This document shows, piece after piece, positions 5,107-29,071 of a stretch of DNA of 64,000 bases; position 1 is the first letter of the stretch; each line of letters begins with the position of its first letter. The DNA is taken from the NCBI RefSeq assembly GCF_009363095.1, contig NZ_CP045295.1:5299001-5363000 (forward strand), given 5' to 3'. The DNA is from Paenibacillus cellulositrophicus (GTDB lineage: Bacteria; Bacillota; Bacilli; Paenibacillales; Paenibacillaceae). The position numbers and the translations under genes are program-made. The notes under the pieces were generated by a model. The model saw nothing but the letters and a program-made list of their open reading frames with translations, had not been told where the DNA came from and ran no database searches.

Positions 5107-5348
5107 ATAAAATACCATCTTAATCCGGCTTTGTAAAGCCGGTACGCATATTGTACCAGCTGCATCCCATGCGGTGTTGAGCAAAATGATCGCAAAACAA
5201 ACGCAAAATAGGTCACAGGTTGCTTTTAACCGCCCTATGAGGCACCAAAGCTTATTCGTTCAGTCTTTATAAAAAAGAAACAAGTTCTGCTTTGGACAAC
5301 ACAGCCCCTGCATTATACAATGAAGAAAACATCTTTCGAAATAACCTG

Positions 5349-5433
5349 ACAGAAGACAGACCGCGTTTGGCGGGTTCGTTTTCTTGGGAAGTCAGAATAC
5401 AGGTGTCCATTTTGATGCTTACTGATTTCGTTA
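5349..5433 (-). repeat. Single inverted copy of the 25.6-26.1 kb intergenic repeat
   Basis: The left end (ACAGAAGACAGACCGCG, then TTTGGCGG) is the reverse complement of the tandem repeat unit near 26 kb with one mismatch in 25 positions. The rest (TTTTCTTGGGAAGTCAGAAT onward to GTTAGG) is an eroded match to the same unit. It fills the gap between merR and the acyl-CoA dehydrogenase-like gene, whose ribosome binding site begins at the end of the repeat. Confidence 0.7.
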
Positions 5434-5442
5434 GGAGAAAAG

Positions 5443-24564: not shown

Positions 24565-25584
24565 TCAAGGATGCTTACGGATAATCGAATCATCCTCTTC
24601 CATAAAGGGCCACGCCGGATATTCAATCGGCAGCCGGCTCACCTCATCCAGACGGGCCAGCTCGTCATCTGTCAGCACGATGCCGCTGGCTTCGAGGTTA
24701 TCCTGCAGCTGATCTGGGCGCTTGGCGCCGACGATTACGCTGGTTACCGCCGGCTGGTTCAGCACCCAGGCGAGGGCGATGCGGGCCACGGTGGACTCAC
24801 GATTCTTTGCGATGTCCTCCAGCACGTCGATGATGGAGTACGCCTTTTCCAGATCTACCGGTGGAAAAGCAAACTTGGTGTGCCGGTCCTCGCTGTTTCC
24901 GGTACGCGTGCGCGCGTATTTACCGGACAGGAAGCCGCCGGCAAGCGGGCTCCATACGAGCAGTCCCATGTTCTGATCCTTCAGGACAGGAATGATCTCC
25001 CTTTCGATGTCACGGCCGGCCAGCGAATAGTAGGACTGGCTGCTTTTGAAGGCGTGCAGGCCGAGTTCCCTGGAAATGCCCCGGGCTTTCATCAGCTCCC
25101 AGCCGGTCATATTGGAAGAGCCAATGTAGCGGACTTTGCCGCTGCTGACCAGGTCGTCCAGTGCCCGTAGCGTTTCTTCCCAATCGGTCAGCTGGTCCGG
25201 GTTATGGATTTGATACAGGTCGATGTAGTCCGTGCCGAGCCGTTTCAGGCTTTCTTCAACCTGGCGCATGATATGCAGTCTGGACAAACCGAGGTCGTTC
25301 GGGCCACTGCCCGTACGCCCCCTCACCTTGGTGGCAATAATGACGTCCTGCCGCTTCGCCCCAAGCGCTTTGCCGAGAATTTCCTCTGAGCGTCCGCCGG
25401 CGTAAATGTTGGAGGTATCAAAAAAGTTGACCCCAGCGTCGAGCGCCTGCCACACAAGCTGTGCAGCGTCCTGCTCTCCCAGTCCGCCGAAAACGCCCCA
25501 TTGTCCGCCGCCGCCAAAGGTCATGGCTCCCAGCCCGATCTCCGATACCAGCACGCCTGTATTTCCCAACAAATTGTATTTCAT
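24565..25584 (-). CDS. Aldo/keto reductase
   Basis: A 339-residue NADPH-dependent reductase of the AKR superfamily (YccK / potassium channel beta-subunit-like branch). The catalytic Asp and Tyr are in FFDTSNIYAGGRSE, the Lys in VIIATKVRG and the His in YQIHNPD. The cofactor loop is in the last third (AWVLNQPAVTSVIVGAKRPDQLQDN). GGAGGG lies upstream of the ATG. Substrate unknown, probably aldehydes. Confidence 0.92.
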   Translation of the reverse strand: MKYNLLGNTGVLVSEIGLGAMTFGGGGQWGVFGGLGEQDAAQLVWQALDAGVNFFDTSNIYAGGRSEEILGKALGAKRQDVIIATKVRGRTGSGPNDLGLSRLHIMRQVEESLKRLGTDYIDLYQIHNPDQLTDWEETLRALDDLVSSGKVRYIGSSNMTGWELMKARGISRELGLHAFKSSQSYYSLAGRDIEREIIPVLKDQNMGLLVWSPLAGGFLSGKYARTRTGNSEDRHTKFAFPPVDLEKAYSIIDVLEDIAKNRESTVARIALAWVLNQPAVTSVIVGAKRPDQLQDNLEASGIVLTDDELARLDEVSRLPIEYPAWPFMEEDDSIIRKHP

Positions 25585-25599
25585 TTTTTATCCCTCCAG

Positions 25600-26068
25600 G
25601 TTTTGTTTTAAGAGATCAAAATGATAAGCTTCAGTGGTCATACCATCTTGATCTCGCAAGAAAAACTTCCACCAAACGCGTTCTTTCTTTTGCAAACGCG
25701 GTCTGTCTTCTGAGATGTACGTCGGTAGATGTTTTTGTTAAGAGATTAGAAATGATAAACCTCTGAGGCCAAGCATCCTGATCTCGCAAGGAAAACTTCC
25801 ACCAAACGCGGTCTGTCTTTTACGAATGTACGTCGATGAATGTTTTTGTTAAGAGATCAGAATGTAAGCTTCAGTGGCCAAACATCCTGATCTCGCAAGA
25901 AAAACTTCCGCTAAACGCGGTCTGTCTTCTGTGAATGTACGTCGATGAATGTTTTTGTTAAGAGATCAGAATGTAAGCTTCAGTGGCCAAACATCCTGAT
26001 CTCGCAAGAAAAACTTCCGCTAAAGGCGGTCTGTCTTCTCAGATGTACGTCGATGAATGTTTTTGTTA
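25600..26068 (+). repeat. Four tandem copies of a ~110-bp intergenic repeat
   Basis: Units start at about 25600, 25731, 25842 and 25951, and the first ten bases of a fifth lie at 26059. Lengths are about 131, 111, 109 and 108 bp; unit 1 is longer because it holds a duplicated AAACGCG segment. Units 3 and 4 are almost identical. Each unit has GAGATCAGAATGT facing ACATCCTGATCTC, which can fold into a 13-bp imperfect stem, then CCGC-TAAAC-GCGG (or an eroded form of it), then GTCTGTCTTCT. No open reading frame is conserved. The array ends about 120 nt before the sigma factor gene. Confidence 0.92.
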
Positions 26069-26189: not shown

Positions 26190-26927
26190 ATGCAGGATAG
26201 ACCAGCACAGGAAAAGGGATATGAACCGAAGCAGGTACACACAGCCGTGAACCATTCCGTGATGACGGAAGATCAGGCCGGATATACGGATGCTGCAGGA
26301 TGGAAGGCCAATGGCTGCCGGCCGGCGATCACGCCGGAAATGCTGTGGGATCAATATCACGAGCCGATTTCCGCTTTCGTCGCGCGCCGAACGAATCGCC
26401 ACCCCGATACCGAAGACATCGTGCAGACGGTATTCATGAAGGCTTACCTGCACCTGCCGGAACTGCAGGACCTGGATCGGCTTCGGGCCTGGCTGTATCA
26501 GATTGCCCGGAATGCGGTGACAGATCACTTCCGTAAGGAGAGACGGTTGGATGAACTTCCGGAGCAGCTGCCAAGCATGGTAGAAGAGGAAGGCGAAGTT
26601 TTCTCGCAGGAGGCGATCTGCGGGATGAAAGGCGTCATTCCCTACCTGCCGGATAAGTACCGGGAGGCCGTCGAGCTCTCCGAACTGAAGGGGATGTCGC
26701 AGAAGGAACTGAGCGAGCGGCTCGGCATTTCTTATTCGGGCGCCAAATCCAGGGTCCAGCGGGGTCGGGAAATGGTGCGGGAGCTGATGAACAGCTGCTG
26801 CACGATCCGGACTGACAAGTACGGCAGCATCATCGATTACCGCGTGAACCTGCCCAAGCCGGTCGTCTACGGAAGGGTTGCCAAGAAGCCGGCACGGCGA
26901 AAAGCATCGACCCGGGCGGAGCGTTAA
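26190..26927 (+). CDS. SigZ-like ECF RNA polymerase sigma factor
   Basis: A 245-residue sigma factor. Region 2 (LWDQYHEPISAFVARRTNRHPDTEDIVQTVFMKAYLHL, then LRAWLYQIARNAVTDHFRKERR) is at about residues 50-120, and region 4 (LPDKYREAVELSELKGMSQKELSERLGISYSGAKSRVQRGREMVRE) at about 150-200. The tail CCTIRTDKYGSIIDYR is typical of SigZ. The N terminus is about 50 residues longer than usual and of low complexity. The start at 26190 has AAGGAG 8 nt upstream; the longer open frame runs into the repeat array. No anti-sigma gene is adjacent. Confidence 0.88.
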   Translation: MQDRPAQEKGYEPKQVHTAVNHSVMTEDQAGYTDAAGWKANGCRPAITPEMLWDQYHEPISAFVARRTNRHPDTEDIVQTVFMKAYLHLPELQDLDRLRAWLYQIARNAVTDHFRKERRLDELPEQLPSMVEEEGEVFSQEAICGMKGVIPYLPDKYREAVELSELKGMSQKELSERLGISYSGAKSRVQRGREMVRELMNSCCTIRTDKYGSIIDYRVNLPKPVVYGRVAKKPARRKASTRAER

Positions 26928-27082: not shown

Positions 27083-29071
27083 ATGAACTTGAACGTAACA
27101 TGGAAAAGAAGGCTGTCCACGATTGCGCTAGGTGCCTTAATGATGGGTGCCGTCCCGACTTTCGGCCATCAGACGGCTTTTGCCGACGGGGCTCAGCAGT
27201 TGCAGATTAAAGACATCGCCGGCAAAAATACGTATCTGATGAGTGACGGCTCGATGTGGTCTATGGTCGACGGAAACCGGACCATCTATACGAAAGGCTC
27301 GGTCGAAGAGATTTCGGGGAACACGTACGAAGGCTTGGGCATTACGCGTGACGGCCGGTTGGTTGAATGGGATATCGGCATGAAGCCGCATGTGGTTGAG
27401 GGGAAAAGCGGAATCAAGCAGGTGTCCGGGCCATACCGGCTTCAGGCCGATGGTACCGTCTGGGACGGTGACAGCAAGCTGAAGAATCTTAGCGGAATAA
27501 CGCTGATTGGCTACGGGGAACAGGATTTTGCCGCGTTGACCCAGAGCGGAGAGCTGTTGTTCAAGGATCCGTACAAGACCGATCAATACAAAAAAGTCGG
27601 AACCGTAAACAATGCCGCATCGGTCAAGTCGATGGCCGTGCATGATGACCGCGTCGCTCTGCTGTACACAGGTGGAGAAGTCGTGGTCTATCAAATGTCG
27701 AACTTTGACGACAATGGCCGGGTTATCCCGGTAACCATCGCTACTGATGCGATACATATTTCTTATGTTTCCGCAGAACCAACCGACGTGCTGATCGTGA
27801 CTCGCAAGGATGGAACCGTATGGCAGACGGGAGAATACTCCAACCGCTGGAAGCTGACCACACAGGTTCAGGGGCTGAGCAACGTGGTTAAGACGGCGGT
27901 AGATGCGTATAAGGATGACTTGGCCGAAGGCATTTACGCGCAGCGTACCGACGGGACATGGGTCATCAGCAAGGACGGCGAGGTCCAGCCGGTGGAGGTG
28001 CCTGCCGTTAAGGCGGTGTCCATGTCCGTATCCGATAAGAAGCCGTATGTTGGCGATACGGTACAGGTCGATATTCAAGAGACGTATACCAACGGGGCCA
28101 AGCTGAAGGTGCCTCTGAAGGAAGCGCAGCTTGAGATGGACAAGCCTTACCTGCTGAAAGTGCAGCCTGACGGCAAGCTGAAAGCGGCCGGTGTAGGCGA
28201 GACGAAGCTGACGGTGACTTCTGGCAGCGTCTCCTCCAGCGTGACGGTGACAGTCAGCCTCCGCGATCCGTTGAAATATGCCAAACAGGTCAAGGGAACC
28301 GTATATCTTCCAGCCAAGACGTTGTTCTAGGCGCTGGGAGGTACGGCTGAGGTATCGGGCGGAAATTGGAACGCTGCTCTCGGGGATGCGAAGCTGTCAT
28401 TTAAGGCCGGCAGTCAGGCAGCCCAATTTAACGGCAGTAATCTGACATTAAAAGCATCGCCAATCATCGACAAAGGCGAAACGTACATCCCTGCCTCCCT
28501 GCTTGCCGATACGCTGGGGGCCAAGGTAACCTGGGATGCCAAATGGCGGCAGGCCGAAGTTGCAATCGGTCAGGGCAAGATGACGATCGTCTCCCAAGAC
28601 ACTGCGGGCTTGATCAAGAAAGCAATGCAGGGCAGTCTGGCCAAATTCATCGGGAAAACGTATTGGGTGAACGACTTTGATGGCTGGGAACGGTTCTCCA
28701 AAGTCACGGTGACGGATGTTCTTCCCACGGACACCGGAAGCTTTGTCGTCGTTTTTAAATCGGCTGCTGGAAAAACGCTGAAGAGCTACGCCATGAATAC
28801 GTCGGAAGTGACGCAGTTGTTTGCCGATTCGACCTACTTTTTGAAATATGATCCCTATACGAAGTATAAATGGTCATCTTCGGTCTGGAGCCAGATTAAG
28901 GCGGGCAATGTAACGCTCGGTATGACCAAGGAGCAGGTGCTGCTGTCCTGGGGAAATCCCGCCGCCAAGGATATCCAGTCCGTGAACGGAACGAAAATCG
29001 AGACCTGGGGCTGGTCCAATTACGATGTTGTCTCTTTCATTGATGGCAAGGTTACATTAATAATCATGTAA
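27083..29071 (+). pseudogene. Secreted copper-amine-oxidase-N-domain protein interrupted by an in-frame TAG
   Basis: The first 415 codons encode a signal peptide (cleavage near AFADG), a region of RCC1-like or propeller-like repeats (GTVWDGDSKLKNLSG, KDGTVWQTGEYSN) and a bacterial Ig-like domain (VKAVSMSVSDKKPYVGDTVQVD). At 28328-28330 TAG interrupts the frame within VYLPAKTLF-TAG-ALGG. The same frame then continues without a break to 29071 and encodes the rest of a copper amine oxidase N-terminal-like domain (YIPASLLADTLGAKVTWDAKW) and a SmpA-like end (GMTKEQVLLSWGNP). The lost residue is probably Gln or Glu. The upstream part could still yield a truncated secreted protein. The ATG at 27083 has a close ribosome binding site; TTG at 27089 is an alternative start with better spacing. 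Confidence 0.85.

Follow-up and report, generated by a model that had tools for sequence, protein, structure and literature searches.

The four tandem repeats that precede a SigZ-type sigma factor gene in the window (the whole stretch of 64,000 nucleotides analysed here) are, in our assessment, probably copies of a mobile element that is about 111 bp long, encodes no protein and depends for its movement on a hairpin-reading enzyme acting in trans. The first-pass annotation had listed a mobile non-autonomous element among its readings, and this is strongly supported by dispersed copies, empty sites, fixed ends and a target rule, to which a compensated two-hairpin structure can be added.

The array, its neighbours and its dispersed relatives

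All four units lie on the plus strand, with borders set from the empty-site junctions described below: unit 1 (25611-25740, 130 bp) has some 20 bp duplicated within its right half, and is followed by unit 2 (25741-25851, 111 bp), unit 3 (25852-25960, 109 bp) and unit 4 (25961-26068, 108 bp). Tandem Repeats Finder scored the array at 580, with a period of 109 and 90% matches. Units 3 and 4 are 95% identical while unit 1 is the most different, which is the order of divergence originally reported. The original description of four tandem non-coding units also stands, in that no plausible gene lies within 25611-26068 and the frames overlapping the units are short, antisense to the neighbouring reductase gene, or the upstream run-in of sigZ. 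This aldo/keto reductase gene (24565-25584, minus strand) lies upstream of the array and is divergent, and the SigZ-type ECF sigma factor gene (26190-26927, plus strand) lies 3' of it; both are context only, sigZ being outside the element. The labelling of the downstream gene as SigZ-like is borne out by TIGR02959 (193.4 bits, cut-off 168.65) and not by NF007215 (190.2, cut-off 212). Further 3' of sigZ, the predicted proteins at 27083-28330 and 28580-29071 gave no Pfam or NCBIfam match. Elsewhere in the window, at 5322-5436 on the minus strand, lies one isolated and degenerate copy (E 4.6e-9) that the first pass had missed.

Copies are numerous beyond the window. With one unit as BLAST query, the own genome (two contigs, 7.42 Mb) yielded at least 66 matches, 40 of 98 candidates having been scored. 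A covariance model, for which 150 of 1636 candidates were scored, found at least 112 matches at E up to 1e-6 and at least 133 when the limit was relaxed to 0.01, the latter count including at least two reverse-strand shadows of true units. BLAST across genomes gave matches in 13 of 40, the own genome among them. Such a search of own and related genomes had been proposed at the outset as a check on neutral local duplication, and the further copies that it found stand against that null. In a sample of Paenibacillales the covariance model found a match at 1e-6 in 178 of 392 genomes, representing 19 of 49 genera, with nine candidates scored per genome; genomes with no match at this threshold are referred to below as element-free. 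Many Paenibacillus species and an Ammoniphilus are carriers among the matches listed, and copy number between species ranges from none found to more than 100.

We studied 42 places in the own genome (the window plus 41 others in 40 stretches), which hold 75 units grouped into 43 clusters, each with one to five copies in tandem, one of the 43 having been newly met in these stretches. The clusters are intergenic, apart from overlaps of 27-82 bases in three of them and of up to 15 bases in two, with the surrounding genes predicted from codon usage rather than taken from annotation. The upstream gene is co-oriented with the element in 33 of the 43 clusters and the family lies mostly behind unrelated genes, which argues against the earlier suggestion of a regulatory array in the leader of the sigma factor gene; sigZ seems to be an incidental neighbour. 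In 34 of 39 clusters the element is oriented with the replication arm, a proportion not clearly above the 75-76% coding bias.

Copies at different loci are up to 99% identical, and in one genome of an independent genus (G113) 33 of 35 matches are full-length at E below 1e-19, many of them near-identical. Near-identical copies at separate places show recent spread. A search for an autonomous version yielded none among the 33 partial copies encountered, which appear decayed or truncated. At loci L049, L132, L167, L188, L200 and L210 the left part of the element is kept and the match ends at model positions 92-102, before the 3' end. Phage and plasmid collections contained no match to the element at E 0.01, and viral contigs no exact match to one core pattern of it; on these grounds a phage or plasmid was ruled out as the vehicle.

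Insertion sites, target and array growth

The joined flanks of 12 single-copy clusters were searched in 25 genomes, the own genome included. In P. rhizosphaerae CECT 5831 (G005) nine of the 12 run uninterrupted across the site (L046, L048, L054, L055, L062, L069, L072, L082 and L085), with slight differences from the empty site at the junction in L069, L072 and L085; of the other three, L057 is empty beside a further difference, L068 holds the same copy and L080 is ambiguous. Because nine of 12 sites lack the element in this species and have their flanks joined there, we conclude that it is an insertion element. When filled and empty sites are aligned, the junction falls behind a T-run that ends in TTA or something similar, as in GGCTTTGCTTA/TTCATC and TGTTTA/TGCCC. 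At L082, P. rhizosphaerae has TTTTTTGA/TTCG where the own genome has TTTTTTGA, then the element ending in CTTA, then TTCG; the final CTTA must therefore come with the element, and any duplication made at that site is at most 1 nt. At most other empty sites the target already ends in TTA, and a 3-nt duplication is opposed by L082 alone. The ends of the element are fixed (AGAG...TTTTTCTTA), and the base that follows the right end is T in 25 of the 38 ends that were readable among the 43 clusters.

The sequence in front of the element commonly folds. In 32 of the 43 clusters the 46-base left flank of the first unit has a folding energy of -10 kcal/mol or better, versus 13 of 43 for the mirrored right flank (p 1.6e-7), the left flank being weaker than this in the other 11 clusters; among 210 post-stop control windows, 36% fold at -10 kcal/mol or better. 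A finder of short-loop hairpins, which misses loops of more than 10 nt and was superseded by the folding-energy test, gave 21 of 43 left flanks versus one of 43 right flanks. At loci in other genomes (47 of 48, with L244 omitted as near a contig end, and unfiltered for first units of arrays), 26 left and 10 right flanks reach the same energy. In G113, where 20 of the 35 matches were sampled, a hairpin and T-run stand before 19 of 20 copies versus two of 19 readable right flanks, copy L276, with the right end TTTTTTTTA, having been left out of these 19. T occupies positions -7 to -2 of the 5' flank in 95-100% of the 20 copies and A occupies -1 in 95%, while T follows the right end in 14 of 19. 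Where a hairpin and T-run exist, the aligned empty sites of P. rhizosphaerae retain them (L082, L046 and L054), indicating that the terminators predate insertion.

Insertion behind an intrinsic-terminator-like hairpin in sense orientation is thus the pattern in most clusters, to which the window array is an exception. Unit 1 is preceded by a T-rich target, GTTTTGTTTTA (25600-25610, plus strand), that lacks the terminator hairpin of most sites, and the left flank of the array folds at -0.4 kcal/mol. The single unit at the corresponding site of P. rhizosphaerae is preceded by ATTTTGTTTTA, a near match to GTTTTGTTTTA.

Of 40 full-length tandem units, 34 have their nearest relative in the same array and six at another locus; unit 2 of L081, for example, is 97% like a unit of L047 and 85% like its own neighbour. 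Arrays therefore grow by local recombination and, as these six units make it seem, also by fresh insertion beside an existing copy. The one unit that P. rhizosphaerae holds at the window site has a left half nearest to that of unit 2 (92% identity) and a right-end variant, CGGTAGATG, as in unit 1, whose own right end (TCTTCTGAGATGTACGTCGGTAGATGTTTTTGTTA) is one base off that of the P. rhizosphaerae unit; the combination of a unit 2-like left and a unit 1-like right is as expected from unequal recombination. The stepwise local duplication proposed in the first-pass annotation accordingly fits the window array, with its nearest relatives within arrays and its four units where P. rhizosphaerae has one, and it is not the whole account. 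Were neutral tandem duplication the only process, as these same observations might invite one to think, the unit would not be expected at 43 clusters of the own genome and across the order; it is already refuted as a complete account, and we give it next to no credence. One own-genome locus (L084, C2 at ~578.4-579.1 kb) has a single copy and a five-unit array facing each other about 80 bp apart, the units of this array carrying the variant arm/end pair ACTAAAAAC / GTTTTTAGT.

Folding and covariation of the element

The element of about 111 bp consists of two adjacent imperfect hairpins, of which P1 starts at the 5' end and P2 closes on the 3' end. In unit 3, P1 spans 25853-25894 on the plus strand (arms 25853-25860 and 25887-25894) and is supported by folding and by two-sided covariation in the family. 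P2 spans 25897-25959 on the same strand, with the A-rich arm AAGAAAAAC (25897-25905) opposite the 3' end GTTTTTGTT (25951-25959); it includes one G/G mismatch, and a P2 mismatch is also present in unit 4. The 13-bp stem recognized at first sight (GAGATCAG/CTGATCTC) is real, with 13 consecutive pairs on the minus strand, and on the plus strand of unit 3 it becomes 8 + 4 interrupted pairs. The CCGC/GCGG hairpin that had been ascribed to every unit occurs in units 3 and 4, with weak covariation support across the family, and is not found in the other units. When units 2, 3 and 4 were folded against 200 shuffles, units 3 and 4 beat all of them and unit 2 did not (z +0.33). Single units from five genomes all fold P1 from the 5' end, and P2 forms in three of the five, the energy model favouring a hairpin at the 3' end in the other two (L248 and L261).

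Covariation analysis of the stems, also proposed with the first reading, found structure conserved across the family, against neutral duplication. P1 has many two-sided changes. In P2 an internal arm, most often AAGAAAAAC, is paired with GTTTTTCTT at the terminus, and arm and end co-vary as AATAAAAAT with ATTTTTATT, AAGAAAACC with GGTTTTCTT and ATGAAAAACTTC with GAAGTTTTTCAT, the native pairs scoring above all 2000 swaps. A small hairpin just before the 3' T-run, P5, is supported once distant genera are included, as in an alignment of 38 sequences (A2), and has no covariation support in a narrower alignment. In A2 the covariation scores of P1, P2 and P5 each lie above those of all 500 shuffles; this control leaves relatedness in, and pairings in slid registers score far lower as well. 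Wobble pairs (G-T) and their complements (A-C) occur in similar numbers, 10 versus 8 in P1 and 50 versus 33 in P2 among 135 sequences, and 19 versus 27 in P5 among 49 sequences, and so favour neither strand as the one that folds.

P5 and the arm of P2 overlap by two bases. The 3' end thus has two possible readings: a hairpin and T-run, resembling the target, or the base of P2. The 3' end of the element is a small hairpin followed by TTTTTCTTA, and at this end the element resembles its own target. Rfam 15 gave six chance-level matches in the window, all below gathering scores, and no family matched the element at gathering scores in 13 loci; a known RNA family was ruled out by these searches.

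A covarying structure in which a terminator-like hairpin (P5) and the P2 arm compete is also what one might look for in a regulatory RNA, whether a terminator/antiterminator or a small RNA, conserved for its function and mobile only in appearance. The downstream gene is co-oriented in 25 of the 43 clusters, and the plus strand of the array contains one terminator-like site (0.6 in shuffles), both of which would suit such an RNA. Against it stand the nine of 12 sites that are empty in the sister species and a copy number running from none found to more than 100, and in the array no promoter pattern of the sigma-70 type was seen on the plus strand (the minus strand has two, with 1.3 in shuffles). 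We regard regulation as a quite improbable explanation of the family.

Candidate enzymes and comparison with known systems

We infer instead that the folded ends of the mobile element would be joined to a terminator, itself folded as a hairpin with its T-run, by an enzyme that reads hairpins and is provided in trans, the substrate being one strand or one circle in the style of IS200/IS605 or attC. Such an enzyme would treat the folded 3' end of the element and the terminator as the same type of site and would make no duplication, and every inserted copy would then give a new target at its own 3' end. Imitation of the target by the 3' end would explain the tandem arrays, which may also expand and contract through ordinary unequal recombination. 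A host function or a transient one is the probable source of mobilization, more so than a resident Y1, IS110 or reverse-transcriptase gene; for these genes we searched with absence defined as no match at E 0.001.

IS200/IS605 elements have subterminal hairpins, make no target duplication and insert 3' of a short motif, and the related REPIN/BIME (TnpA-REP/RAYT) and PATE elements are non-autonomous, intergenic paired hairpins with guide-like end pairing. The present element is similar in having hairpins near both ends, an internal segment that pairs with the joined end, insertion 3' of a fixed short motif and, judging by L082 only, no duplication, and it could in principle be a REPIN- or PATE-like element moved in trans by a Y1 transposase of the IS200/IS605 or RAYT kind. 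Full-length Y1 genes are present in G113, which is the cleanest target case, and in G014 and G010; in G014 three units (L289, 1459-1774) lie just downstream of a Y1 gene on the same strand. This array is the sole clear case of units nearby among 20 Y1 loci (one a gene fragment) in element-bearing genomes; at L291 a weak edge match to the element (E 0.01-0.04) lies about 2 kb from a Y1 locus. Unlike what would be expected of a REPIN or PATE, no Y1 match was found in the own genome or in six other carriers (G004, G005, G006, G020, G030 and G037), in a search of carriers that left out G017, G019 and G021, and no association appears across 50 chosen genomes, with Y1 matched in 16 of 31 element-bearing genomes (in some as fragments only) versus eight of 19 element-free ones. 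We therefore think it improbable that a Y1 transposase moves the family.

Integron cassettes and their attC sites likewise offer tandem arrays in one orientation, hairpin sites and no target duplication, all of which the element shares; it differs from them in carrying no cassette gene. It differs from IS110 bridge-RNA elements in that the DEDD recombinase (PF01548) was not found in eight of 13 carriers, including G005, G006, G020 and G030, while five of the 13 have it and the own genome (G000) has four matches.

Group IIC introns insert beside a terminator hairpin that serves as a recognition feature, in the part of the source available (PMC3898094), and the element resembles them, so described, in inserting behind intrinsic terminators in sense orientation. 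A retroelement moved by a group IIC-like reverse transcriptase, its RNA being inserted behind terminator hairpins, would account for this choice of target; the internal A-rich segment could act as an exon-binding sequence, and insertion would fall near the release point of terminated RNA. However, the element is only 111 bp long and matched no group II intron family in Rfam, a group II maturase domain was not found in nine of 13 carriers, the own genome included, and a reverse transcriptase of any kind was not found in seven of 13, among them G005, G006, G030 and G037. The own genome has one partial reverse transcriptase. On this evidence we consider reverse transcription of the element unlikely.

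In G005, G006 and G030, of which G006 is a single contig, none of Y1, IS110, group II maturase and reverse transcriptase was found. As obligatory resident machinery each of the four is ruled out by the carriers without it; since present-day copies may descend from an ancestor in which the enzyme was present, each is otherwise weakened rather than excluded.

The bcr1 repeats are 147 or 167 bp long (PMC2267715), and the accessible portions of three reports describe bcr1 and other group A repeats of the Bacillus cereus group as intergenic, MITE-like and present in many copies with a conserved fold, bcr1 being reported there from the B. cereus group only (PMC6542083, PMC3446304, PMC2267715). A TTTAT motif has been tied to its mobility, with a mechanism resembling site-specific recombination suspected, in the accessible portion of one of these (PMC6542083). 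By these partial descriptions, the element is like bcr1 in being a short, folded, intergenic mobile repeat with a TTTAT-like junction (the terminal TTA is followed by T at 25 of 38 ends, and at 14 of 19 in G113), and unlike it in spanning the Paenibacillales, forming tandem arrays and targeting terminators. The element is closest in kind to bcr1 and REPINs, and closest in target choice to group IIC introns. We place it outside all of these classes because in each case a defining feature failed or, for bcr1, because the comparison is by description only.

In the part of the open-licence literature covered, no title or abstract describes this family, which is seemingly undescribed. It may be, and we offer this tentatively, as somewhat less likely than not, that it represents a distinct class: a gene-free pair of hairpins of 111 bp that carries a replica of its target (a terminator-like hairpin plus TTTTTCTTA), each copy being a landing pad, moved by a host or other hairpin-reading enzyme that is none of Y1, IS110 and reverse transcriptase, and colonizing terminators across the order. 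If so, a large part of the Paenibacillales carries behind its terminators a mobile family that is unannotated and unmatched in Rfam, and that can alter the ends of genes, fragment assemblies and give rise to tandem arrays. The movement of protein-free repeats such as bcr1-like ones without a fitting resident transposase would become testable, with G113 (many near-identical copies) and G006 (none of the four machineries found) as ready comparison genomes.

Matches lie within the first 3-17 bases of G020 contigs C13, C62, C98 and C113. Because matches fall at several contig starts in this genome, the element may break assemblies, and copy numbers from drafts may be underestimates. At another locus (L264, 1672-1808, minus strand) a copy of the element has a SAM riboswitch some 50 bp away.
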